This document shows, piece by piece, positions 32,973 through 58,118 of a DNA stretch of 64,000 nucleotides. This DNA comes from Phytophthora sp. 'mugwort' (Eukaryota; Oomycota; Peronosporomycetes; Peronosporales; Peronosporaceae), in NCBI GenBank assembly GCA_033558025.1, contig JAUCEF010000011.1:1302001-1366000 (forward strand). The letters run 5' to 3'. The notes below the pieces were generated by a model. That model was given only the letters and a program-made list of their open reading frames with translations, ran no database searches and was not told the origin of the DNA. The number at the start of each line of letters is the position of its first letter. Positions within the stretch are counted from its first letter, which is position 1. The position numbers and the translations under genes are program-made.

Positions 32973-35900
32973 TCAAACTTTCTCTTCCTCAGCTTCTCCG
33001 TCATGTAGGAGATCGCGTCGTGTCTTCTTGCGCAGTCCGACCTTTCCAGGGCGGCGCAACAACACAATTCGTTTGCCAAAACAATCTGGAATTGTCTCAG
33101 CGCACTCGAAATCATCGTGCCAAATCTGGGAACAGGTTTTTAGAGATGCCCTTGTACTTGCGGCGTGCTTTCGGGCAGAGGAAGAGCTTTGCCTCGCCAT
33201 TTGAACAGTCCTCACAAAAGAATGTCGTCTGGAATGACTTCTCACACTGTCCACGAAGAAGTGCACACAGTTTACATGAGCGTTTGCGCCGCTTTTGCAC
33301 GCCGGACACCGTAATCCTGTCGTCAAACTGCGCATGGGTGTCTGTGGAGTGGCGCTGACGCTTTGCTCCGGACCGTACAGCAGCTAACCGGGTGACCGAT
33401 GACTACATGTCACAGTCTTCAGGCTTGAGTTGGAGTAGCTGCTTATGTAGAAGGCACATCCACTCGCCGCGCGACGTTGCACGTATTCTATTGAGTCGGC
33501 TTGCTTCCTTGTGAGTGATGTATGCATTCACTACAGCAATGTCCACGAAGCCTAGGAAAAATGACTTATAATACTTCCGAAATCGAAAGGAAGTTTGAAT
33601 AGAGTAGGATGCAAACGGAGTTGATCGACGCCGCCCATCCAGCGCTGGTAATTCGTCACCAACTTTGGGCATCTGAACGTTATGGGGCCCACTTGCTTCA
33701 GGTTTCGCTGTATACGGTCTTCCGCTATTGATACACTAAAGCCAGCTAATGGACCGGTTTGCGGCAACACCAGTGGCACGCAGCCATGGTGGGAGACGCC
33801 TCGTATCGGGAGAACGTGAATGTTCCTCGCTCAATTGAATGTGGACGAGTCTTCCGCTTCTCAAAATCTCGAGCATCGAACCCGATACGTTTCGTCGTGA
33901 TAGTTCAGATCGACACAGCTAGAAGCACCAGTCTGAGCGCTAGTGATGAGTAAAACCGATATATGACATCCAGCCGAAAGCCATGTGAACGTTCCCCAAG
34001 AATAGCCTTCATGCTGCGGACGACAGCAGCGGCACCCATGTTGTTGTCAACTGTCTGACCTGGCGCGTTGTCTCGCTCCCGTGCTCCAACATAGATTTCG
34101 AAGCTAAACAGCAAGTTCCAACTTTAGCAAGCTAGCAAATCACCAAATGTATAAGTTACGAATTTATCGAGAAGGCGGGAAACAACTACGCACCGGTGGT
34201 AATACGCAGTCTTTGAATCGCACACCATGAACATGTTCGTTCCGTACCGATGAGGCTTGTCGGGTATGGAGATGTGCGTTGTATTCCTACGTGAAGTAGA
34301 CGGTAAGACACCTTCATCGAATGAAAACACAGCTGGGAGGGTCCAAGCCGAAAGGCATCGTTCCAGCACCGCGTCGATCACCTGCCGCAGCTTCCACATC
34401 TTGTCCCGCACACGAAGGGCCTCATTGTCTGTGAAATGCAAGTCACGTAAAAGGATAGTACAACGATCCCGTACCATAAACACTCCGAAGATACCTGTCG
34501 ACTAACCCCCTCGTCGGACATCGCCTAATGCCGCGAGAATTGACGTGTTTTGCGGACAAAATATACGTGCTACGAGCAGTCCGATTACTTGTGAATCTCA
34601 GAGGTTTCATAAGGTGTTCAGCTCGCAGACGTCCGCGTATCTTCTGCAGCGTTTCTGGGCTTTCGTCCGCCTTACGCGCAATGATTTGACCGCACGCGAG
34701 CAGCCCGAGATTCAATTTGCTGTCTTCTGCATCGATTGGTCTCTTCTGCAATGCCAACCGACAGCGACTTTGGCAAGAAGTATAAAACCAAAGCCATTGG
34801 TGAGCCAGTGCTAGCTCTGAGTTAGCGGATATGGGCTGCCACATCTTAGGAAAGATTGGTATAGGTGGCCGGGTTATCCTCAAACACTGTAGACGGTTCC
34901 CTCCGTTTTTGTCGCTCGCAGAGCTTCCTTGTCAGTATCATCAATTGTGAGCGAACCTCCGAGTGATTCAATGAAGCCCTCATCCACGAGAGCCACTTCG
35001 CCGTCGGATAGAGAATCGTCGTAAAAAAAACTACCGACGCTCGGCGTCGTCTGTGTCCTGCTCAGCCTCAGCCTCACTTCCACTGGAGCTTATAGTCTCG
35101 CAATCGTCTGAGTCCTCCTCGTCCTTTAAAATAACCACATCGCCGACTCGACTCGAAAGCTGGGAGAAATGTGAACTCGTATCAGCCTCTTGACCCTTGC
35201 CTTCATCTTCCGATGGATTTACATCCGCTTCAGACGCTACGTTAAATAGCATTCGCTGGAATAGCTCAACGATAACCTCCTCAGCAGAGCCATCCATGGG
35301 CAATGAAGCGCGCAGTGGCGAATCAAGCACCCGAGCATCAGCGCCCCGATGTGAAGCACTGCCTTCATCTTCAGCGCCAACAACTGGTATACAAGGATCG
35401 AAAAGTGCTTCTAGCGTTGGCGTTGAGAGCGCCAACGAACCGTCAATTTGTGATGGCGAAACCGCATGGATCGCATCACCGTCGCAAGCGACAAACCGGA
35501 GCGTCTGCCGCTCCCCGAGCTCTAATATCCGTCGTCGCACGCGACGCCTGAGTGTCCGCCACGCCCCGAGCCCGAGTATCCGCCACACGCCACGCCTGAG
35601 TTGCTACCGTGCTCGACTTTTGCATCGTCATTTCGACCCCCGCTGCCCTCATTTAGGTGAATTAGGCCAGCCATTATGGCGAATATAACCACAGCGTTTT
35701 CTCCTGCAAACAAACTGAGAATATGTTCATAGCAGAGCTTTGGGAATAGGTTACGTACCTTGAACACATTTGTCCCCTCAATGAGCACATCACCACCAGC
35801 GTTTGGCGCGAATTAAGTCAAGTCAGTCGCAAGCCTGATTGGCTTCTTCGACTTCCAGCCAGCCGCTCGCAGTTGGCGCCAGAGATGCCTGAAGTCCACA

Positions 35901-36026
35901 GCGCGAAGCTGAGTAGATTGCTTCGTGCGTGCACTCGACCCAACCCTCGCCATGTAGATCACCTACCAGTTTGCCGTCAAATTTCTGAATGAGCCGGATT
36001 CTCCCCTCACAGCGACCACTCATCAT
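32973..36026 (-). pseudogene. PiggyBac-like transposase
   Basis: Minus-strand pieces in order: N-terminal FRHLWRQLRAAGWKSKKPIR (about 35890-35830), an acidic Ser/Glu/Asp-rich part (35588-35031), then the DDE_Tnp_1_7 domain: LPAVFSFDEGVLPS (first Asp), DNNMGAAAVVRSM after APGQTV (second Asp), WMGGVDQLRL (third Asp; the following Asp of the usual GGVDxxD is missing), FRFRKYYKSFFLGFVDIAVV, and a Cys-rich tail KRRKRSCKLCALL with FFCEDCSNG (33309-33112). About six frame changes and several stops show it is dead. Confidence 0.8.
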
Positions 36027-36320
36027 TGATGACGGCTTCCCGGTAGCCCCATCCCTGCCTCTTTTTTTTTGAAAGTCTGCATTTGGCCTCTCCCAATTTA
36101 TACTTGTTACAGTCCAGAATAAATTTGATCAAAGTATGCAATCGTTTTTTAGTCATTTTCTGTTGGAACGGGGGCATTTTCTAAAAGGTGCGCACGATCC
36201 GTGCCATCTTGCTAAAACATGCTCTCACTTTCAAAAGGTGTGGGTTCAACCTGTTAAATAGCGTAGACCACTGTGGCATGCTAAGGCTTGATTCAACGCA
36301 GCAGCAAGTGCGCAGCAGCG

Positions 36321-38154
36321 ATGGCCTACGTCGCCGCCCCTCGGTTTGTCGCCCCACCGGTCGAAGGTCAATCCTTTCCAGACGGCAACGCTGCTCTTTA
36401 TGCCATTCAGGACTATGCGCTTTCCCTTAAGAAACAAGTCCGCGTCGTGAAGGGAGGCGAGAGACGCAAACACATAGCCTGCTCATCGACAGCATGCACA
36501 ATCTTCGTGCAGATGTACCAAAACAATTCAATCACCTCCTGGCGCATCCCGTCCATGAACCTGGGTCATATCAACTGCACATCCGTAGCAAAACCTACGG
36601 ACCGTCAGCTTGCGGGTCTTCCTGCCTTCGAAGTGCCGGCCTAGCCAACCCTGCATCATCCGGCAAAGCTTTGTCAGATCAAGTCCAGCAACAACATGGA
36701 CTCGTCGTGTCCAACATGAGCACAGTGTACCGTGCGAAGGATATGGTAATCCGGGCAACTGCCCTGGATCGGGTCAACGCATACAAGAAAATTCCACAGT
36801 TACTTGCAGATTTTGAGAAACTCAATCCTGACTCAATCACAGAAACCCAAACCGACGGTGACGGCCGATTTCTAAGAGGAGTTGTCATAAGCAAGCCTCT
36901 CGTTGCCTCAATGCCTTACAACCAAAAAAAAAGCCAACCGATTTTAGGAATCGACTGTGCCCACTTTACCAACAGTAACTACGGCGGTTTTTGAATGGTA
37001 CTAATTGCCCGTGATGGCAGTTTCAAGAACCTTACATTGGCAATCGCCTTGGCGAAAAACTCCGGGGACATCGTTAACTATGAGTGGTTTCTCAACTGTC
37101 TGCTGAAAGCCGAGCTCTCGTTGGCAAATTATCCTCTGTTTTGTGACCGCAGCAAGGCCCTGGTTTCAGTCGGCAAAAAGTATGGTCTCGAGCTCCGGTA
37201 CGTAAAATGTTTTGGGATTATGCTTTATTATTTTATTTGCTAACAAAATGTGCAAACTACAGCCACTGCACAGTACACATAGAATGAAACACTCTAGACC
37301 AGCGCAAATCGTGCATAGCACCCCATAAAAAATATCTGTTGCAGCTTCAGGGTGCCAAATATGAGGAAGAGTACGAAAACGTGCTCACAATGATTAGCAA
37401 AATGGTGGGGAAGAATGTGGAAACGTATTTGCGCAAGATACCTCCACACTGAGTTCTGTACACCGTGATCGGCAAAAAACCGTTGTACGGATGTCGTACA
37501 ACGAACTTCGTTGAAAGTTCCTCGACGAGTTCAACTCGGCCACTTTGATTAAGGGCATCAGGGCGTGCGCCCCGTACTCGTATTTCGACCGAATCATGGC
37601 CACAATGATGGAGGCAGCCTATGTAAGGTCAGAACTGGCCTCGAAGCGGACAAAGGAAGGTCGTCTAGTTATTGTGGGGGCTCAAGCACTCTATGACGAG
37701 CGTTACGACAAAATGGGCAACTATTACGTTGCTAATTTACAAGATCAAGTTACCTTTGGGCCATCGAATCGACAAGCTACCCATATTTCGATACCGTGTA
37801 GAACTGAAAAAGAACACCTGCTCGTGTATTTCCATGGACCAGCACGGGATCCCCTGCAGACACATGATCACCACGTTGGTGAAGCGGAAGAAACTTGATT
37901 CTGTTTTTAGTCGATTTGCACAATGTTATCTCGTCACCAACTATGGCAAAGCCTTTGCCCACGCGAAGGTCGAGATGCCATTGCTGGGAAATGTTGAGGA
38001 TGAGGAGCTGCAGACCGCTCAGTGCTCTAGTGGGCGCGGAAGGAAGCAGAAGAAGCGCATGCCAAGTCGTGGCGAGAACTCTACGAAACTAGTTCGCTAC
38101 TGCAAACTGCCTGGTCATAACATACGGACGTGTCAGAACCCCTCGAGCGAATAG
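36321..38154 (+). pseudogene. MULE transposase (M1) with one intron
   Basis: Starts MAYVAAPRFVAPP at 36321; a frameshift near 36640; then GIDCAHFTN (first Asp), an in-frame TGA at 36992, and LFCDRSKALVSV (second Asp). An intron at 37198-37262 (GTACGT...CTACAG) rejoins the frame as ELRHCTVHI. YGCRTTNFVES holds the catalytic Glu. The C-terminal part has a SWIM zinc finger, CSCISMDQHGIPCRH, and a small CCHC-like knuckle CKLPGHNIRTC near the end. It lies inside the bounds of the PiggyBac element on the opposite strand. I could not find its terminal repeats. Confidence 0.75.
37198..37262 (+). other. Intron of MULE transposase M1
   Basis: 65 bp, GTACGT...CTACAG. Splicing joins GAGCTCCG to CCACTGCAC and gives LRHCTVHI, the reading seen without an intron (LKxCTLHI) in the second MULE at 52640-52680. 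Confidence 0.65.
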
Positions 38155-38287
38155 TTGCATCTATGTAGAAGAAAATAATACTTGTACGGCGAGAAGAAGG
38201 GCCTCATAGCAGCAGTATGACACAGATAGCATGCATAAATCCTGTTTCCAACGTCGTAAGTTACGACATTGGAAACAGAGGGGTTAA

Positions 38288-40208
38288 GACACGCAAAAAT
38301 ATTAAACAGTTCTATCGCACGCAACTTATCTGTATACGAATACGAAACTCGCGCGTACAACTTACGATTCCTTCTTGGCCTCCTTGTCTAGGCCAACCCA
38401 TTTGCGGGCAAACGATGAAATCGTTGGCGTCAAATATTCGCCCTTAAGTTGCTCTACCACTTTTATCCAGTTTTTTAACCAATAAGTTGCGCTACAGGCA
38501 ACTTAACGACTTCCAACCATAGTTAGACTTTCCATTTTTGGAGAATATTTTTTCATGGAAACTTATGACAAAATGGCCCTTATGACAGGTAAATGCCGGT
38601 ATGTTTTGGGTCACGAGCTTGTTTGAACATTATTGACATGGCCATGCGGCCTCTGCTACTAACTGATGTATGTATGCACTCACAACACTAGCAAGAACGA
38701 CGTTTTTTTTTTAGATTAACGGTTCTCCATTTTTCTTCGTCCATCAAGTCACCATCCCATCTACCAGTCAACTCTGCGTGTCTCGAGAAAAATGGTGGAG
38801 TCAAACCAAGTGCAACCGGGTAGCATGTGCACCCGAGACGTATCACGTCACAAAGTGTTTGTCTCTACATTGCTGACTGATAATTGAAGGTGGGTGCCAA
38901 TCGAAACTCGTCCTTGTCTTGATGGCATCAAGTTAACGCGCAGGTTACATGACATGTAGTACATACATGTAGATGAAGACTAATAGCCAATACCATAAGT
39001 AGCGTTTTGTAGTTGCGGCGTAGCTTGTAGTACTGTACAAGCCTTGTACACAGTGAAGTAACGTGGAACGTTTAGCAAGCATACAGCTGCAATCCGGGGA
39101 GATCCAGATAGGCAGACTTAGAATACTGTACCTCATCAGTCATCGTGTCAAGCCATCATCCGCATTAGTTGCTCAGTGACTAAAAGTCCTTCCGAGGGTG
39201 CAAACGCTTTAATCTCTGGCGTTGTTTGACAAAAGCCAACGAGGAGGTTAAAACTTGACGAGCCCCACGACGACAACAGAAGCGGGCAGCCTAAATTGAA
39301 CAACTTGATCCCCCATCTGCAGATACATCCGGACCGCATTGCTGCATTGACCTCGATCACGCCCATCTACGTGTGCATTCACTCGGCAAGCGCTCATCCC
39401 CCGTGTCACGCCTGTCGACGAATGGATGCGGCACCACTCCATTAATCTCATTAATCCTAGTGTATCAGGCAAGCATAGGTATACATGTAGTACTGTACCC
39501 TCCCCTCCCTCTCGCAGCGAGAGTCGCGCAAGACTTGCCAGCATGTGCAGCAACGGCGTCTCGTCCAGTCGTTCAAATGGAGCCGCAATCTCGGGCTTTT
39601 GAATGGCGGTAACCGTTGAAATCGAGCGAGGCTGTTGCGCCAACGTTTCTACATGTAAATGCAATGCTCACGCGTCTTGTCAAATGGGCCCACGCGTTCT
39701 GCTGGTCCAATCCACGTCGGCCTATTCATCGCGTCACCTCCAGGACGTGCGTGGCCCGGTCGGAGTTAATCAAGGCGTGCATGGCCCGCGCGATTAAAAA
39801 AAATGCGTGGCTTGCAGCCGCTTTGTCGCCTGATCAGCGCGGCCTCGTCAACATTAATAACGCATGTAATCCGCTCGACATGTGGTTTAATGAGCTTTAA
39901 GCTCAAATTGAACAGGCTGCTGTCAAGACCCTGACGTGGGTTTCAAGTTTCGAGCCTGTGTTGCCTAAACCCCATCGACTTTGTCCAATGTGTCACGATC
40001 GAGATCTACTCGCGTGCAGGTTCTTCGTCTCAGTCGCACGCAAAACAGACAAGGAGGATGCGTTTTCCTATAAGGTGGTTCGGCTTTGAAGACTGCAACG
40101 CGTCAAGGACAGTGCAAAGACACTCGTTCCCATCCCTCCCGGTCTTTCCTACTGTTGACGTCGAAGGGGTCAAGTCTCTCTCAGGTAAGACTGTCCTAGA
40201 CTCACACC
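38288..40208. other. Intergenic DNA
   Basis: No gene supported. Frames are short and lack domains; the sequence upstream of the transporter has no recognisable mobile element. Confidence 0.45.
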
Positions 40209-40222
40209 TCACTTCCCAATTT
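40209..40222 (+). promoter_or_regulatory. Oomycete-type initiator plus flanking element
   Basis: TCACTTCCCAATTT matches the oomycete core promoter layout (initiator TCAYTYY directly followed by the CAWTTT flanking element), 8 bases before the ATG of the peptide transporter. It implies a very short 5' leader or transcription starting here. Confidence 0.6.
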
Positions 40223-40230
40223 CATTCACG

Positions 40231-42069
40231 ATGCCAACGTCGAAGATAAAGTCGCCGGCCCTCGAATCGCCCAGCACCGCCTACGCGAGCATCTGGGATG
40301 AGCGTCCGCGCAAATACAAGAGTGTGCTATTTCAAGTATGCGTTTTCATCCTCATGATGGAGCTATCCGAGCGTCTGAGTTACTACGGCATTAACCAAGG
40401 ACTCAAGAACTTCATGCAGAAGATCGGCTGGAGCCTTGTGTCTGCCAGTGCACTCAAGAGTACGTGGACGTCCATCTGCTACATCACGCCGCTGTTTGGT
40501 GCCTATCTGGCCGACGAGAAGTGGGGTCGCTTCCGCACGATCCTCACCTTCGGGGTCTGGTACTGCATCGGCGACTTCCTCGTAGCCCTCGCCGCCCATC
40601 CGGACATCATGACCGAGGAGGCTATCGTGAACCCGATCTTTGTGGTTGGCCTGTTCGTGGGCATTGGCGTCGGTACGGGTGCCATCAAGTCAAACGTCAT
40701 CACGTTCGGCGCAGACCAGTTCGACCCTAACGACCCCAGCGAGGTGCAACAGAAGGAGACGTACTTCTCGTACTTTTACTTCTGCATCAACTTTGGTGCC
40801 GCCTTCTCGTACGGATACCTGTCCGTCCTGTGCGTGGAAGGCTCAGCTCAGATCCCGGCTGAGTACGGCTACTTCGCCACTTACATGATTTGCGCAGGAG
40901 TGATGGTCGTCGCCATCTTCTTCTTTATTGTTGGCTCTCCGCGCTATGTGCACATGCCGCCCAAGGACCGCTCCATTTCGACGCTGCTACGCCTGCTCAA
41001 GCAGAGCGCGCGTACGTCGCGCGAAGGTGCCGTCGTGGTCACTGGCGCCTTCCTACTCTTGTTCTCGCTAGTCGTCAACATTGCCTCGGCTTTCAGCGCT
41101 GACGTCGGACGCGTGGGCGAGGTTCTCTCGTACGTCGCTGCTGCCATGGTACTGGCTGGTGTCGTGTGCTGGGTGTACGCTGCCCATGACCAGTCCTTCT
41201 TGGATAGGATGAAGGAAAGCCAGAGTGGAGAGTTTAACGACGTCCAGGTCGACGGCTACAAGAAGCTCGTGAGTGTGCTGCCTTTTGCTGCCTTTACCAT
41301 CATCTGGCAATGTGCGTACGACCAGACCGACGCCAACTTCCAGTCCATTACGCAGCAATGCGACCTGCGTCTGGACCGCAGCGACCCGGACAGCTCCCAG
41401 ATTCCTGGTGCCATGCTTGGCGTATTCGACCCAATCTTCATCGTCATTTGCATCCCCCTCCTTGACTCGGTCGTGTACCCACTGTACGAGAAGCGCTTCG
41501 GCAAGCCGCCTAGCCACTTCGGCCGTGTGTGCGCGGGTCTCATCGTGGCTGCTATCGGCATCTTCTGGTCCGGTATCTTCGAGATCATCCGTCGCAATGC
41601 CGGTGCCCTGCAAGATGTCAATAATAATCCAATCCTCGATGGCGGCAGCAAGCAGCCGATGAACGACATCTCGTGGGCTGCCGCTATCCCCAACTACGTC
41701 TTCATTGCCCTGGCTGAGTGCCTCATTAACGTGACAGCGTTCGACGTGTTCTACTCAGTGGTGCCCCTGGGCCTCAAAAGTACGTCGCAGAGTGTGAATC
41801 TCTTCATGACGTCCGTTGGCAGCGTCATGACGTCGGTTTTCACGGTCATGTTCTCGCCATACCTGCCTTCGGATGACCTGAATGATGGCAACCTCGAGTA
41901 CATGTTCTTCACAGTTGGTGCCGTCAGCGTCGTCAATTTCTTCGCCTTCTACTTCACCATGAAGATGATGAACTTCGGTATGTCGACCAGCGCCGCTGCC
42001 GACGACGAGTTCGGTCTTCAGGGCAAGGAATCCGTCGCCTCCCGCCACAGTATTGCTGCGTCCAAGTAA
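40231..42069 (+). CDS. POT/PTR family proton-coupled peptide transporter
   Basis: An intact 612-residue single-exon gene for a polytopic membrane protein of the proton-dependent oligopeptide transporter family (SLC15/PTR2), which moves di- and tripeptides or related solutes with protons across the plasma membrane. Evidence: the family motif ELSERLSYYG (residues about 46-55; ExxER proton-coupling motif), DEKWGRF after the second membrane segment, FGADQFDP (about 160-167), FYFCINFGAAFSYG (about 180-195; family signature FYxxIN), and about twelve hydrophobic segments. Length fits the family. The start at 40231 sits just after an initiator-like element and has no competing upstream Met in frame. 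Substrate cannot be told from sequence. Confidence 0.93.
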   Translation: MPTSKIKSPALESPSTAYASIWDERPRKYKSVLFQVCVFILMMELSERLSYYGINQGLKNFMQKIGWSLVSASALKSTWTSICYITPLFGAYLADEKWGRFRTILTFGVWYCIGDFLVALAAHPDIMTEEAIVNPIFVVGLFVGIGVGTGAIKSNVITFGADQFDPNDPSEVQQKETYFSYFYFCINFGAAFSYGYLSVLCVEGSAQIPAEYGYFATYMICAGVMVVAIFFFIVGSPRYVHMPPKDRSISTLLRLLKQSARTSREGAVVVTGAFLLLFSLVVNIASAFSADVGRVGEVLSYVAAAMVLAGVVCWVYAAHDQSFLDRMKESQSGEFNDVQVDGYKKLVSVLPFAAFTIIWQCAYDQTDANFQSITQQCDLRLDRSDPDSSQIPGAMLGVFDPIFIVICIPLLDSVVYPLYEKRFGKPPSHFGRVCAGLIVAAIGIFWSGIFEIIRRNAGALQDVNNNPILDGGSKQPMNDISWAAAIPNYVFIALAECLINVTAFDVFYSVVPLGLKSTSQSVNLFMTSVGSVMTSVFTVMFSPYLPSDDLNDGNLEYMFFTVGAVSVVNFFAFYFTMKMMNFGMSTSAAADDEFGLQGKESVASRHSIAASK

Positions 42070-50387: not shown

Positions 50388-51437
50388 ATGGGTACACTCA
50401 CTTCGTTTTTTATGGGCGACGATAATGTGACCAGATTTTTTAATGACTGTATGAAGGAGGGCACGACACCGGCCACTTTTGTAGAGGCTTTCATTTGCAG
50501 CATTTGCAAGGGGGGAGACACAGGCAACCCGTTAAATTACAAGGCAATTGCCCTGTTAAATACGGACTATAAGATATTACGAGGATACTGACATGGAGGG
50601 TAAGGAGGCACATCAAGAGACTAGTTTAGTTAGTACACGCTACGCAATTTGGTTTCATACCCGGCAGGACAATTCATGCAGCTAGACTTATCCGAGGCGG
50701 CCAAAATCATCTGCAAGAAGGAAGGAAACGATCTGAGTGAAGTTCAGGTTTTGCTCCTGGATTTCGCGAAGGCCTATGATTCCCTGGATAGGGATTTCCG
50801 GCTTTTGGTAGTGAGATGAAAAGGTTTCCCGCCAATTTTCTGCAGAATGGTGGAAGGAATTCACCACAAAACCGAGGTGCGATTCATGGCGAACGGAGTC
50901 TTATCAAGGTCGGTAGGGGTGAACAGAGGAATCCGACAAGGATGTCCTTTAGCGCCCCTGCTTTTATACTGGCGGTGGGCCTACTGTACGACGAGATAGA
51001 GGTGGTGGCGAAGGTTAAGGGCGTAATACTGGATCCGGAATTACCGGACGGAAAGTTGAAGGTGGCGGGATATGCGGTTGGTACGGCTATCTACATAGCA
51101 CATCGAAACATGCCGAAAGAGGCCATAAAAGCGGTGGCTCGGTTTCAGCAGTATCAGGGCTTCTATTAACGTGAGTAAATCATCAGCGATAAGATTGGGA
51201 GCAGAGATGAAAGAGAACAAGGAGGGAGACAGGATACAGCAACAGGAGGGCCACGATGAGGGCATAAATGAAGAGGTTGAAGAAACGGAGTCGGTGCGGT
51301 ATTTAGGTCACATTGCAGGACCGGTAGACACCACAGAGAAAATGTGGGACAAGGCCTTCAGCGCGATAAGAGTACGGCTGCATTAGCGGAGGTCAAGACC
51401 AATAAAGTGGTACAAAGAGCTGCGATCATAATCCCAA
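50388..51437 (+). pseudogene. LINE reverse transcriptase, 5' segment
   Basis: Non-LTR RT motifs over frame changes: NPLNYKAIALLNTDYKIL (50530-50580), LLLDFAKAYDSLDRDF (50750-50800), GIRQGCPLAPLL (50928-50965), and GYAVGTAIY (51066-51092), where the catalytic YADD should stand; both Asp codons are changed (GTT, GGT). RYLGHIAGP follows. The frame is then cut by a MULE at 51438 and continues at 55607. The 5' end of the LINE is missing; it begins about 80 bp from the preferred kinase ATG. Confidence 0.75.
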
Positions 51438-51467
51438 GGGAAAATGTCAACACATGTATGAGGTGAA
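51438..51467 (+). repeat. Left terminal inverted repeat of the MULE
   Basis: Starts GGGAAAATGTCAACACATG; pairs with 55577-55606 with one mismatch. Confidence 0.85.
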
Positions 51468-51757
51468 AACATTTCGCCAAAAGCGGTTAACTTGCGTCAG
51501 AAAGTGTAGTCCAGTTCTTCTCAGTATCGACAGTACGTGTGTACGGGGTAAAGTGCGTCTCCGTGTGTGTGTTTCGCAGAATACAAAGTCACTTAGTGTA
51601 CGCGCAGCAAATCGATGGAGGTCAGTAGCTATGCGGCGGGTCATGCATGACCCGAACCCGTCAAAACCCATTGTTCGAGGGCATTCCACCCACAAGCGCA
51701 CTCTATTTTCGTGTACTTTGAAGGCTCAGTTCGAGATATTCCGGCTGAGGGACAACA

Positions 51758-53584
51758 ATGAACGGCGACGCGGACGATATCGAAGAGTGCTGTATTTCCA
51801 TGGACTTCAAGGCGCTTCGCGTGGGCATGGTGTTTGATTCTGCATCGAATGCATTACATGTTGTCCAAGACTACGCATTTGCTTAAGGACGAGCTGTGAA
51901 GGTCAAGCAGACAAGTGGAATGCACCGCTTCATTGGATGCACTTCGGACGACTGCAAGTTTGGTATTCGTGTCTACCGGAAGCGTCGAGCGGACAAATCT
52001 TACGGTCCTTGGTACATATTTTCGATTGAAGAGGAACACGTAAATTGTGTCTCCAATGTCAACCCTACCAGACGCCAGATTGCTGAACTTCCAACATTTT
52101 CGAGTGCTGTTCGTGCTGATTGCACGATATCGGCAGGGTCTCTGACGGACCAGATCCAAACACGATGTGGAATATCGCTGGCTAAGAAACGGCAAACGCT
52201 TTACCGAGCTCGACAGCACGTTAATGATGTGGGGGATGAAGAACTCGCTCAAGCTTATTAAAAGATTCCTGAGTATCTTGCCCGCTTCGTAGAGCTAAAC
52301 CCGGGTTCGGTGGCATTAACGGAACGAAATTCTGAAGGTCGCTTCAAGCGCGCAATTGTGATTGTGAAGGTGATTGCTGCTGTGGCCGTGGCCCGTCAGT
52401 CTGTCGGTGGGGTTGACTGCAGCCATTTTAAGTGCCTATCTTACAGCGGAATGCAGATGCATTTAGTCGGACGCGATGGCAACCTACGAAACCTAACGAT
52501 TGCGTTTGGGTTAGTGGAGGCTGAAGACATCGAGAACTTCCACTGGGTTTTCTCGAAACTGCTGGAACATGGATACGACCTCGCCGGAGTTCCTATGTTT
52601 TGTGATCGCAGTGGTGCTCTCATATCGGTCGCTCAAGATTTGGGTCTGAACCTGAAGTAGTGCACGTTGCACATTATGTGGAATGTGTTGGCACGATTCC
52701 GGAACTTCACGCACGGTCACAAACGTTTGATGTGGGCTTTACAGAGTGCTGAAACCGAAGATCTCAACACTAGCCGTCTGAACTGGATTGGTATGGAGCT
52801 TGGAGAAGAGGTCAAAACACATTTCAGTGAGATCCCGCCCATTCGCTGGAGTGTCTACGCTAATATTGGCATAGTTTCTCTCTACGGATGGCGAACGTCC
52901 AACTTTGTCGAGAGCGTCTTCGGCACACAGCTCGTGGAAGGTATGAGGCATTTACAACCGTACGGTTTTATTCGAGCCATGTGCAACAGCTTTGTTGACG
53001 AGTGTTTCAAGCGATCGGTCAATGCCGTCCAGTGGACTGAACGTGATTTGGTTCTCGCACCCGCTGCGATAAAGCTTCGTTAGAAGCAAAGTGCTACATT
53101 CGGCCAGTATTCAGTTCTACATGCGTCCGCAGAAGTCAGCTTTGTGTACGCGACGGCAGCTTCGGTAAGGGTTCGTCGCCGAGTGAACACGTGTGAAGGC
53201 ACCTGTACATGTCCGCATTTTGACCAGATGGGAATGCCATGTCGCCACCTCATTGCAGCGCTTGAGAGCATCGTCAAGCTCTCGAATATATTCTCGTACT
53301 TCATGCCTTGTTATAAGGTATCTGAATACGCTTCAGCATTTCTGGGTCAAGCCGTATTCATCCCTCTCGACCATGAACTCACACGCGACTCAACATGGCT
53401 TCCAGCACGTTACGTGAAACAGGCTGGTCGCCGGAAGACGAATCGCATCCGGAGTGTCGGCGAAGAAATAGCAGGATCTCTACACCGATGCTCGCAATGT
53501 CACCAGTGCGGACACAACAAACGTACATGCACCAGTGAGCAAACGAATAATATGAAATCCATACTACACCCCTCAGCGGTTTGA
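51758..53584 (+). pseudogene. MULE transposase (M2)
   Basis: One reading frame of 609 codons runs from ATG 51758 to the stop at 53582, broken only by four stop codons (TAA 51884, TAA 52259, TAG 52658, TAG 53081) and no frameshift. N-terminal zinc-type region (FIGCTSDDCKFGIRVYRKRR), catalytic GGVDCSHFKC (Asp), MFCDRSGALISVA (Asp), WRTSNFVESVFGTQ (Glu), then a SWIM finger CTCPHFDQMGMPCRH and a CCHC-like end CHQCGHNKRTC. All catalytic residues are intact. It shares its plan with M1 but has no intron at the M1 position. Confidence 0.8.
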
Positions 53585-53848
53585 ACACGTCCATCTCGAT
53601 TGTTTCTGAGTTGTCATTGTATTTTACTCCCTCATCTGCAATATTGCCTTTAGATTGCTTTTCATTGTGTTTGAGGTCGCCAATACAGTAACCAATCTGA
53701 TGAATATACGCGATTTTTCACTCCCTCGTCTACAATGTTGACTTCCGCCCCAGAAGCGTTTGAGTTCAAGATCGTCAATATACCCGCTAATCTTGTGCAG
53801 GATCGCGATTTTTATTGAGAGCGTATTATGCATCCTAGGCGTGTCGTT

Positions 53849-55401
53849 CTACTTGTCCCGGCAATTGTCAGCTCCACAAACACAAGTAAACCAGATCTCG
53901 TCTCCGTAGTCCACCGCAATTTCCATGCCAGCCGGGATGTATGCAATGGCAACAGCAGTAACCGCGATAAAGCGTCGGTTTTGCACTTCGAAGAACCTGC
54001 AATTGGCGGCGCAAAAATGATTCAGAAATCTAGCAATCGACCACGCGGGCCTCAATCCAGAGCTTCTCTTTGCGAGATGAACGAATCGCTAGCGCAACGG
54101 TATAATCACTGATTCGCTGCTCGTCCTTGCTGTAGTCGTGTGTCGTCAATACACCAGCGTACTCAGCTACAATCGTACCTTCTGGAGTGTGCTTAGTTGA
54201 AAACACTGAATATCCTTTAACTCCTTCGCCAATTGAAAGCCGCCAACCCTTTGAAGCCTGTTGCCACAACACCTGCCGTTCAGGCAGTTATTCTTTGCGC
54301 AGAAGATGCAACTCAGCGCATTTTGGCATAGCTTGGGATCGCACACAAACTCGCAGCCGCACCAATCCAGGAGCCTAGGTCCGGACCGGCAATCTTGGCG
54401 GGGTTCTCTGTGTGCCGAATTGCAACTACTCCGAGAGGCCAAGATGCAGCGTCAGTCGCAACGAAGACGCGGGAATTAGCTGACGGGACCTCCTTATCCC
54501 CCACATTGATCTGCTGTTTCATGGACTCGTCGCTCGAGTCGTAGTTGCCTTCACTGCTTTTAGGCTGAGTACCCCTGAGATCGCCCTGGTCGTGAAGGTA
54601 ATCGCTTTACAATTGGGACTTTCATTACCGCTTCGGTACCCGCCGGCACGATCGTCGTCGTTATCCGTCACGTTTGCAACCCCACCGAAAAGTGCATACT
54701 TCTGCTCTAACCTTCGCCGGCATGCTCACACTCGCCTTCTTTATTGTCGACACTTGCCTCATCCCTATCTGAAGCTAAGTCATCTTCGCTGGAATCAGTT
54801 AGGCTTACCACCTCTGGTAATGTATGACACGTCTGGCTTCCAAGAAGTCTGATTCCCCACCAGCCGAATCTTCGCTATCGCTAGAATCAATCAAGCTGAT
54901 CACCTCACGTGCAGCTGCAGGCCAGGCATTGTCATTGATGGAGGTGTGCTCGGAATTGCCCTGATCAGCCTGATCACTGCCTGCTTCGTGTGCATCGGTC
55001 TCAACTTGAAATGAGCCGTGTGTATGCTTGTCTGGCTGCGCTGAGACGAGATCGACGAGGTCCACGACGTAGAGCATGTCGTCCGACTCCTTCAGCAACT
55101 CAATCGCTGTTTTGCCAACTCGTATAGTGTTCGGCCCCACGTACTGCTTTCCCATCGACAGCGAGCCAAAATCCTGGTATGGAATGGTCTTCATCACAGC
55201 AGTGCGATATGACCTATCAGAGTCTCGAACAGGAGCGCGACGGTTCATGTACCGCTTAAGGCGAGACTTCGGGTGATGGTAGCCCACCTTCGTGCTTCGG
55301 GCAAAGCGTAAACGGCGCTTTTGCTCCGCGTACAGCTGAAACGCCTGCTTGGCTGACACTCGGGTCATCGGAAACTCTTCCTCAGTCGCAGCAGTGTTCA
55401 C
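53849..55401 (-). pseudogene. SET-domain (histone-lysine methyltransferase-like) gene in the MULE
   Basis: Minus strand. The first 198 codons are open (MNTAATEEEFPMTRVSAKQA to HYQRW) and end in an acidic stretch with EVISLIDSSDSED. After frame changes a second similar motif, EVVSLTDSSEDD, follows. Then come a Cys-rich pre-SET/AWS-like part (DWCGCEFVCDPKLCQNALSC, FCAKNNCLNGRCCGNR), the SET core (GYSVFSTKHTPEGTIVAEYA; RFLNHFCAANCRFFE; VDYGDEIWF) and a post-SET CVCGADNCR just before the stop. The family methylates lysines on histones using S-adenosylmethionine. Frameshifts near 54810, 54440 and 54055, and Phe in the usual NHSC, make it a pseudogene. Confidence 0.78.
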
Positions 55402-55576
55402 GGCACTACCAGTCTAATTTGGGCTTCACAGCCGTCCCCGACACACATCGGCTAACACCAGGTTTCTCCTGAAGCACCGGCTATCTCCAAAACCAGCGCC
55501 AGTATGTGTGTGCGGTACAAACGTAGGCTGTCGGCAGCTTCACTGCAGCTATTGCACCGCTTGTGACCATCTTTTC

Positions 55577-55606
55577 CTCACCTCATACACGTGTTGACAT
55601 TTTCCC
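55577..55606 (-). repeat. Right terminal inverted repeat of the MULE
   Basis: Reverse complement starts GGGAAAATGTCAACACGTG; one mismatch to the left end. Confidence 0.85.
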
Positions 55607-56129
55607 TAATCCCAAAGATGGTATACGTCACAAGACATTCGTGGCCCACACAGAAGCCGGTGAAAAGGGCAGATTGGAGCATCCGACATGTTGTTATGGA
55701 ACGCGATCTTTGCGGAGCCGATGAAAGTGCCTCAAGGCTGGATCAAGGCGGCGCTGGCCGAGCAAACGATGACAAATGGAGGCATAGGGATGCCAAACAT
55801 CACTGCCGAGCTGGTGGCCATGAATGCATCGATGGTAGGAGACTCGGGCTTGACACAGGATCGGATAGCGCAAAAAGCGTCGGTGATATACTGAAGTCCA
55901 TAAGGGGAGATATGCCAACGCACCTAGTGCACAGAGTAGACGTATTCAAAGCAGAGATTAAGGCCACGACCTGGAAGACTGGGTGGGCATGTACTGAAAT
56001 GTGTATTAGAGGAGACGAAGTCGATGCCAGGACACGGAAATCAGAGGCAAAAGCGATACGGGAACAAATGACACCGAGAAACGGCCTGATAATACGATGG
56101 ACTCGCGCTGGGATGGCAATGACATGTAC
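55607..56129 (+). pseudogene. LINE, middle segment
   Basis: Resumes after the 9-bp duplication with IPKMVYVTRHSWPTQKPV, then in another frame LLWNAIFAEPMKVPQGWIKA and GGIGMPNITAELVAMNASMV, the C-terminal part of LINE RT (thumb and following). It ends at GMAMTCT where the PIF/Harbinger element begins. Confidence 0.7.
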
Positions 56130-58118
56130 CAGGGGGTTTCAGATATTTTGCCTTTCAGCGTCATCTTTGGTGTCATCGTTTGCAAACGATGAGCGAGCCG
56201 TTCGAGTATCGCAACAGCGACCAGCTCAGCTGGTACGCTAGCTTTGTTTCTGTTTCCAGTTGCGTCTCTCGGTTACGTTGGATCAGGCTTTACCATCTAA
56301 TCGTACCCCAGCGCCTGGCATTTAATCATCTCGCGCTGCTCCTCAGCATTCTTGGTCGGAGGAGGAGCTACAATGCAGCAAGAATCGTCGCTATCTTCGT
56401 CATCACTTTCACCTTCAGCAGCAGAAAAGTCTTCACGATCTTTGGATCATCCACTTCTAGCGTGATATTGTGGAGAAGGACGCACAGGAGTATGTCGTTG
56501 TTCACTTTTTCAAAGTCTTCTTTATTCGTGATCTGGGTGCGTACACCAAAAAGAGAAGACCAACGGTTCTTCAGCGATCCAATGCATCTCTCATTTACCT
56601 TGTGCTCGACAGAATGGTGTTATAGCACGCGTTTTCGGGTTGAGCGGCTCGTGGCTTCTTGTACGGCGTAACGAAGTGCTCCGAGAGAGCATATCACTGT
56701 CACCAATCAAATATTCACCGTCCGAGAAGTACTGCTCGGGATGTTTAACAACCGACGAGCGAGAGAAGACCATAGCATCGCCACACGAGCCTGGCCATCC
56801 TGCGTAAGCGTGCGGAATGCGTTGATCTTCATCACAGAAAATCTGAACGTTCAGCCCATAACGTTTCTTGCGCGTGAAGAAAAGATGCCCATCGATATGG
56901 GGCTTCTGAGAGAAGTTTACGTAGGCCCCGTCCACAACCCCAACGACGCCACCAAGGCCATATCGCTCACGTTGAAAAGCTGATGAAGCCACCCACTTCG
57001 TCGCCGACGGCCACGCAACAAACCGCGAATAGTGCCGAAGCAAAATGATTTGAGAACGCGATGAACAAACTCGGATACCGTATCCAGCTCTCAGTCCATA
57101 CGAGCGAGCAATTCTCTCACAGGAATTTCCATTTCCAAACGTTCCACACCACTCCAGCGTCACGGCTAGTTGGATCGCTGTATCGGTTTGCGGGTTCTCA
57201 CTGTCGTTGTAGAAAATAGAGTCTCTCACAATCAGGACGAGTACGTAGTCGAACGTCACTTCATCTACACGAACCGATTGTCGGAATTCTTTTGGGGTTT
57301 GGTCGAAAAGATTGTATCTGTGCACAGTAGATCTGGTCTCCTTTCTATGTGGCTCCATGTACCTCGTCTGCGTTAGACCAGTATAATGATCAGCTAGCTC
57401 CGAGACTTTTTCACTCGCTTCTTCATCAGACATCACCCACGCTTCGTTCCTCCACGCAGTTCTTCGTTGTCTCCTTCGTCCCAGCTATCGCTATCACTGC
57501 CGTCGAGCTCTTCGAGCAGAATAGCTTGAAACGGCGCGCTTGATATGGCGCTGACGACTTTACTTTTCTCGGTGGGCAGGCATCTCCTCGCACGAGCTCT
57601 ACAGCTCACATTTACAAGTTGTTGCGGGCAGGCAGCAGGTTAGCAGTTCAAACGAGAACGACGTCGCTGTTCTAATCTTCGTACCTTGCAGCGCACGCAG
57701 ACAATGAATGAAGTGGAACTTTAGTGTAGGAGGGCGTCTTGCAGCAGCGATATCGCTGTCCCCCCGAGAAGACCTGGCCACGGAGAGCCTGAGCGACGAA
57801 ATTTCGGGATGAGGTCGGACTGCCTTTGAGTACATCAGAGCATTGGGTTAGCTGGTAAATAATGTCCTGGGGAGCATCAGCTGCTCTACCTTTTGCTTCT
57901 CAGCGTTCTGACGGGATAGATCCGACGCCAGAGGGCTCTCTGCAGCGTCGTTCAGCAGCGCTGCTGCTGTCAGCACGTGGCGCCGTGCGCTATGCGCTAT
58001 GCCGCTCGACGCGGGAGCAATTTTGAGGTTTCAGAGATGGATACGCTTTTATCGTCTCATTTTTTTAGCCTATTTTTTGCGGTGATTTTTCGCGAGGAAT
58101 GAGATGTCTGAAACCCCC
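56130..58118 (-). mobile_element. PIF/Harbinger-type DNA transposon
   Basis: Inverted ends GGGGGTTTCAGAYAT (left from 56132, right end 58118) flanked by TAC at 56127-56129 and 58119-58121. The left end carries two extra bases (CA) before the G run. Inside is a PIF/Harbinger transposase on the minus strand. Removing the element with one TAC restores the LINE frame (MTCTDTLSEEL). A 3-bp target duplication fits the superfamily, although TWA is the usual target. Confidence 0.78.
56297..57436 (-). pseudogene. PIF/Harbinger transposase (DDE_Tnp_4)
   Basis: A 281-codon frame (57436-56591) with VGVVDGAYVNFSQKPH (first Asp), RKKRYGLNVQIFCDED, HAYAGWPGSCGDAMVF and YFSDGEYLIGDSDM (second Asp). After a frameshift near 56600, ERCIGSLKNRWSSLFG (catalytic Glu) and VNNDILLCVLLHN follow. 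A one-base loss near 56450 shifts into an acidic tail (ESDDEDSDDSCCIVAPPP) ending at 56297. Catalytic residues are all present; two frameshifts only, so it is a rather young wreck. No Myb-like partner ORF is visible in the element. Confidence 0.82.

Follow-up and report, generated by a model that had tools for sequence, protein, structure and literature searches.

Why should a transposon carry a gene for a SET-domain methyltransferase, and has that gene long been part of it? The question is raised by the element at 51438-55606 in a 64,000-nucleotide stretch of the genome of Phytophthora sp. 'mugwort' (assembly GCA_033558025.1, contig JAUCEF010000011.1, C11:1302001-1366000), hereafter the window; positions without a contig name are those of the window. 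The element is one Mutator-like (MULE) unit of 4169 bp with two convergent genes, a MULE transposase and a SET gene, both of which are broken. Its identity as a two-gene MULE with a long-resident SET gene is highly probable, and it is likely a dead copy of a family in which the SET gene was both kept for long and selected. We regard the SET gene as a long-term selected part, and not as a recent passenger or a nested insertion, because it diverges in step with the transposase and its ratio of nonsynonymous to synonymous substitution rates (dN/dS) is as low as that of the transposase.

An earlier note, made from the window's sequence alone, had proposed a single unit with near-identical 30-bp ends and a perfect 9-bp duplication, and this description held in full. 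The arms, 30 nt each at 51437-51466 and 55578-55607, are complementary at 29/30 positions (97%), and the inverted alignment of the element's two 400-bp ends gave a best score of 77, where 200 shuffles reached no more than 53. The target duplication TAATCCCAA matches at 9/9 positions (51429-51437 and 55607-55615) and exactly abuts the element. The inverted repeat proper is 29 nt long with one mismatch, the outermost pair of the 30-nt arms counting to the duplication, and the ends of the element are of the GGGRAAATGNCA type. The target-site duplication of MULEs is typically 9 bp (8-11), and classical Mu has long terminal inverted repeats, than which the 30-nt repeats found here are shorter. The features of the element are as follows.

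51429-51437, no strand: left target-site duplication TAATCCCAA, 9/9 with the right copy
51438-51466, plus strand: left terminal inverted repeat, from inverted-repeat and end-pattern searches with a shuffle control
51758-53584, plus strand: remnant of the MULE transposase gene, all in one frame but with internal stops; start at 51758 placed by eye
within 52262-52660, plus strand: MULE domain (Pfam)
within 53084-53584, plus strand: SWIM zinc finger (Pfam)
53849-55368, minus strand: SET methyltransferase gene remnant; start at 55368 inferred as the first Met of the 54805-55413 frame
53849-54088, minus strand: C-terminal half of the SET domain, containing NH(F)C, VDYG, and the post-SET cysteines (Pfam and profile)
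54030-54287, minus strand: SET N-terminal half (Pfam and profile)
54167-54451, minus strand: pre-SET/AWS-like cysteine segment; likeness by eye, no Pfam match, match to a profile built in this analysis
54805-55413, minus strand: open frame covering the N-terminal part of the SET gene; nothing matched in Pfam
55578-55606, minus strand: right terminal inverted repeat, from inverted-repeat and end-pattern searches with a shuffle control
55607-55615, no strand: right target-site duplication TAATCCCAA, 9/9 with the left copy

The presence of a MULE transposase on one strand and a SET gene on the other, both as remnants, was borne out by matches to PF10551, PF04434, and PF00856. The transposase consists of four open reading frames (ORFs) in one frame (51887-53584, plus strand) with stops between them. 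Its MULE domain (PF10551, E 1.1e-4, 23 bits) falls below the Pfam cut-off of 27.6 in this broken copy, as does that of the transposase ORF in the copy on contig C12 (E 0.0041), while the SWIM zinc finger (PF04434, E 3.6e-8) is above its cut-off; the MuDR DNA-binding domain reached E 0.067 at best. Among eight protein relatives of the transposase, P0007 contains both PF10551 and PF04434, P0004 (70% identical) is a named MULE transposase of P. infestans, and all five with a named organism are from Phytophthora. The SET gene occupies about 1.5 kb of the minus strand and comprises an N-terminal part, a cysteine-rich pre-SET, the SET domain, and post-SET cysteines. Its spread over several frames indicates breakage by frameshifts; in the transposase it is in-frame stops that interrupt the reading frame. 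PF00856 was matched above the cut-off in 54088-53849 (E 6.6e-7) and below it in 54287-54030 (E 0.0046). The pre-SET cysteines, SET core, and post-SET CxCG noticed earlier were all recovered: the pre-SET cysteines lie in the 54451-54167 frame, where Pfam gives no match, and CxCG(x3)C closes the SET piece as judged by eye. The named organisms among 36 SET-domain relatives are mostly Phytophthora, plus one Nothophytophthora and one tardigrade. By these sequence features, the MULE and SWIM transposase, the 9-bp duplication, and the terminal inverted repeats place the element among Mutator-like transposons, and the second gene is a predicted SET lysine methyltransferase (domain, NHxC, catalytic Tyr, cysteine-rich pre- and post-SET segments) that lacks the GxG motif.

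The genome (86.3 Mb, 154 contigs) was searched for further copies. With at most 3 mismatches allowed, the end repeat was found 8 times (window 2, C3 2, C17 2, C12 1, C14 1) and a control pattern 0 times. Three further long copies were obtained on C12, C3, and C14, each containing MULE and SET pieces between related ends. The C12 copy is 88-90% identical to the window element in two blocks, retains only the outer motif at its right end, and shows a 9/9 duplication read by eye from its flanks. The C3 copy is 91% identical over 4211 columns, end to end and through both genes, with a 7/9 duplication. The C14 copy is more distant (69-73% in three blocks), and its 2/9 duplication is at chance level. 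All three hold both genes, and an inverted-repeat search of the window found no convincing inner pair of ends around the SET gene. This shows that the transposon moved with both genes, as the earlier note had argued from the duplication enclosing them. The family end sequence without gene cores at C18:3175875 is an apparent deletion derivative. A second, more diverged family has ends GGGGAAATGACAAAAGGCGTGGTCAGGGG with the same motif as the window family; its C2 member has both ends, a 7/9 duplication, and both genes. Among eleven loci of 4.6-5.3 kb, both ends were found in L076, L077, L078, and L080, decayed ends in L081, and the left end only in L079. The L081 locus, on C6, has no 9-bp duplication in register, and 7/8 positions match at 8 bp by eye.

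The pairing of the two genes extends well beyond these copies. Two genome searches with 67 and 101 matches were merged into 110 SET loci, ordinary host SET genes included, and two further searches into 215 MULE loci; 150 of 591 candidates were scored in one of the latter, so that the counts are lower bounds. A MULE match lies within 5 kb of at least 21 of the 110 SET loci, 18 convergent, 2 on the same strand, and 1 divergent. Within 2.5 kb there are at least 18, against about 1.4 expected under uniform placement, and 17 of these 18 pairs are convergent with a spacing of 1.1-1.7 kb; at the same-strand case (C6:5020) a second MULE match stands in the convergent position. A transposase profile of a second MULE lineage (lineage B) added 8 convergent pairs (L015, L018, L019, L021, L027, L030, L034, L036), of which L018 and L019 score identically and are probably one duplicated locus, and a SET profile added one pair at C12:898, where the SET domain is partial. 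The genome hence contains at least 26 convergent SET-MULE pairs. When the best 30 SET loci (L008-L037) were examined with 1.5 kb on each side, 19 had a MULE nearby, L013 had one at 4.7 kb, and 10 had none. Comparison of the transposase profiles of lineages A and B, which are short and shallow, gave a probability of 0.2 and no significant match, which is weak evidence that the two transposases may be unrelated.

Some SET loci stand apart from MULEs. A third SET clade (L014, L017, L025, L029, L031, L033, L037) has no MULE profile match within its 3-kb loci, and in L033 and L037 a DUF6818 ORF adjoins the SET gene; this clade possibly represents HarbingerS elements, to which we return below. Furthermore, the 453-aa open frame at L012:1480-2838 (minus strand) encodes the whole SET domain together with post-SET cysteines, and no transposase profile match was found in this locus of 3.2 kb.

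The two genes were then compared in their divergence. Pairwise SET and transposase distances are correlated at r = 0.92 in lineage A (9 loci) and r = 0.88 in lineage B (13 loci), each with p = 0.0005 in 2000 permutations that carry no correction for relatedness among the loci. A SET tree restricted to loci of this genome groups lineage A in one clade with a support of 97. When proteins of other species were added and the tree was rooted on one tardigrade sequence, the two lineage A subfamilies did not form one clade (support for the split 90, for the outgroup placement 33); in view of this split, one common origin of the lineage A SET genes cannot be taken as secure. The same applies to the choice between one and several captures, as the deep supports are low (27-57) in trees built without host SET genes. 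The protein P0011 (labelled jgi/Phyca11, read as P. capsici) falls inside the SET clade of the window family with a support of 98. The selection analysis covers the window's family. Relative to C14, dN/dS of SET is 0.17 for the window, 0.12 for C12, and 0.18 for C3 (dS 1.09-1.63), three comparisons that share C14 and are not independent. The corresponding transposase values are 0.21, 0.16, and 0.17, with bootstrap ranges overlapping those of SET, and the same alignments read in other frames gave 0.90-1.93. Codons containing stops were skipped, which slightly lowers dN in both genes. Constraint is weaker in the N-terminal part of the SET gene (0.38-0.49 versus C14). These ratios show purifying selection on the coding frame of SET, like that on the transposase. 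Among themselves, window, C12, and C3 give 0.36-1.62 over both genes, as expected for copies drifting after insertion.

Several observations weigh against a SET gene that was kept and selected for its activity, beginning with the shared C14 reference and the uncorrected permutation test just mentioned. The earlier note had asked for dispersed copies holding both genes between the same ends, of which this genome has three more, and for an intact one, which failed to appear: all four long copies are broken. Related ends and transposases also occur without SET. A 9.6-kb unit at C17:1685886-1695471, with a perfect 9-bp duplication GTGCAGGAT (by eye; ends in L045 and L043), has the end sequence of the family over about 0.6 and 0.5 kb at its two ends, and the genome SET and MULE searches found the core of neither gene in it. 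No SET match was obtained for C18:3873654-3878201, a unit with two ends and a MULE match, or for C12:875302, a MULE fragment with a single end; the MULE loci C7:5251 and C10:2764 group within SET-bearing clades and gave no SET match in 1.5 kb on each side. No end pair was found for five 5-kb loci of lineage B (L083-L087). As for the enzyme, the Pfam AWS and pre-SET models matched none of the SET proteins scanned. GxG is the usual cofactor-binding motif of SET methyltransferases, and in all four readable members of the window family its place is taken by GYS (window, C3, P0011) or GCS (C14); P0011 is a complete SET protein from another species, and lineage B members L018 and L035 have GLG. The altered motif could mean changed or lost activity in the window family. 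Furthermore, the substrate predicted by structural comparison is ambiguous across family members: among solved structures the SET protein of L012 is nearest to SETD2 and that of C14 to EHMT2/G9a (H3K9), and the fold of a P0011 model (mean predicted local distance difference test, pLDDT, 68.6) is nearest to MLL3, ASH1L, and NSD1.

For a selected SET gene, the following mechanism can be speculated. The gene was presumably first captured from a host gene; the transposase would have moved the whole unit, and the SET product, if active as predicted, would methylate a chromatin lysine to the element's benefit. Given the identity and long residence, the enzyme may keep the element's own DNA transcribable and accessible, that is, protect it from silencing. 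We favour this role tentatively, as somewhat short of an even chance, because the SET relatives by sequence and fold include AWS-type enzymes. AWS-type enzymes (SETD2, NSD, ASH1L) set the H3K36 mark, which counters silencing. A broader proposal is that two or more MULE lineages, whose transposases could not be aligned with one another, regularly carry SET as their other gene, almost without exception in convergent orientation to the transposase, and that this gene has diverged in step with the transposase and been preserved by selection. We consider this less likely than not, as the selection data come from the window's family and the second lineage is without found ends. If true, Phytophthora transposons would encode a chromatin modifier with a required role in their life cycle across the genus. 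A transposon that encodes epigenetic enzymes of its own directly signals that silencing is contested, and a constrained SET gene co-evolving with a transposase offers a testable oomycete system for chromatin control near mobile elements in transposon-rich genomes.

The strongest rival, which we consider unlikely, is that the SET enzyme restrains or camouflages the element, H3K9-type methylation quieting it between bursts and limiting its copy number. The likeness of the C14 protein to EHMT2/G9a suits this, as does the SET gene of a Phytophthora Helentron, which PMC4067079 likens to the H3 methyltransferase Clr4. The structural neighbours of L012 and P0011 point the other way, and so does P0046 of P. 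nicotianae, which stands in the same tree and is named AWS domain-containing at its source, though Pfam finds nothing in it.

Less probable still is a role of the enzyme in directing where the element inserts, or in methylating a non-histone protein, be it the transposase or some other. A direct partnership of this kind would fit the close pairing of the two genes and their parallel divergence, but no direct evidence for it was found, and SET genes are also seen where no MULE was detected (in the third clade, where DUF6818 stands beside 2 of 7) and in a Helentron, so that no single transposase type seems to be needed.

We consider it quite improbable that SET is a captured host gene or fragment that rides along as a passenger, as in Pack-MULEs, and does nothing for the element. 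Gene capture is common in MULEs, no SET is seen in some units whose ends or transposases are related, and the ratios among window, C12, and C3 are those of dead copies. Against this, SET dN/dS versus C14 is 0.12-0.18 where other frames give 0.90-1.93, SET co-diverges with the transposase, and one convergent layout recurs at 26 or more loci. The earlier note had left open whether the gene served the element or was captured from the host; co-divergence and purifying selection support long service, and the recent passenger falls away. Lastly, a separate nested insertion, or a host SET gene beside which the MULE landed, can be practically dismissed and is refuted for the window family, as C3 aligns with the window element end to end through both genes, the 9-bp duplication encloses both with no convincing inner ends around SET, and related ends enclose SET in C12, C3, and C14 as well, contrary to what the note had said a nested SET piece would predict.

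The surroundings of the element hold other transposon remains. The left flank contains, at 50634-51169 (plus strand), what by eye looks like a decayed non-LTR (long terminal repeat) reverse transcriptase, with no Pfam match. When the flank segment 51129-51428 was searched, it matched itself alone in the genome, giving no unoccupied paralogue of the insertion site (the two flanks were not joined). A second MULE transposase remnant at 36285-38154 (plus strand; SWIM E 6.6e-8) is 44% identical to the element's transposase core; it is a SET-less sibling, with no adjacent SET match and no clear terminal repeats in 33800-41800. A fragment of a PiggyBac-type DDE_Tnp_1_7 transposase lies at 34124-34501 (minus strand, E 4.5e-13), and a 297-aa open frame at 56591-57484 (minus strand), 1 kb outside the element, is a partial Harbinger-type DDE_Tnp_4 transposase.

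The earlier note knew of no named MULE lineage with a SET gene, and this hint of novelty did not survive. Kojima (2025, PMC12730594), citing 2014 Repbase reports, states that MuDR and HarbingerS elements of Phytophthora carry SET histone methyltransferases. The SET-bearing MuDR elements (Kojima and Jurka 2014, via PMC12730594) share with the window element the MuDR/MULE class, the oomycete host, and the internal SET gene; the window element is of this published kind, likened by description and not by Repbase consensus. Elements of this type had been described before; what the present analysis adds is the parallel divergence of the two genes, their repeated convergent arrangement, and the test for selection. 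In the open-licence papers searched, no selection or co-divergence test was found for the SET gene of these MULEs. HarbingerS, known here from a title cited in PMC12730594 (Kojima and Jurka 2014), is likewise a clade of DNA transposons bearing a SET histone methyltransferase gene, but it has a Harbinger transposase where the window element has a MULE transposase. Identity with HarbingerS was rejected, as the eight ORFs scanned inside 51438-55606 contain no DDE_Tnp_4 and the MULE transposase lies inside the ends. PMC4067079 describes a SET-domain ORF in proto-Helentron-Pi and Phytophthora Helentrons, which are rolling-circle Rep/helicase elements unlike the window MULE and have the SET ORF in common with it. 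Plant Vandal MULEs, according to PMC12730594, encode a sequence-specific protein that regulates their own silencing; they thus have an extra gene acting on the element's own epigenetic silencing, as may be the case for the SET gene of the window element.

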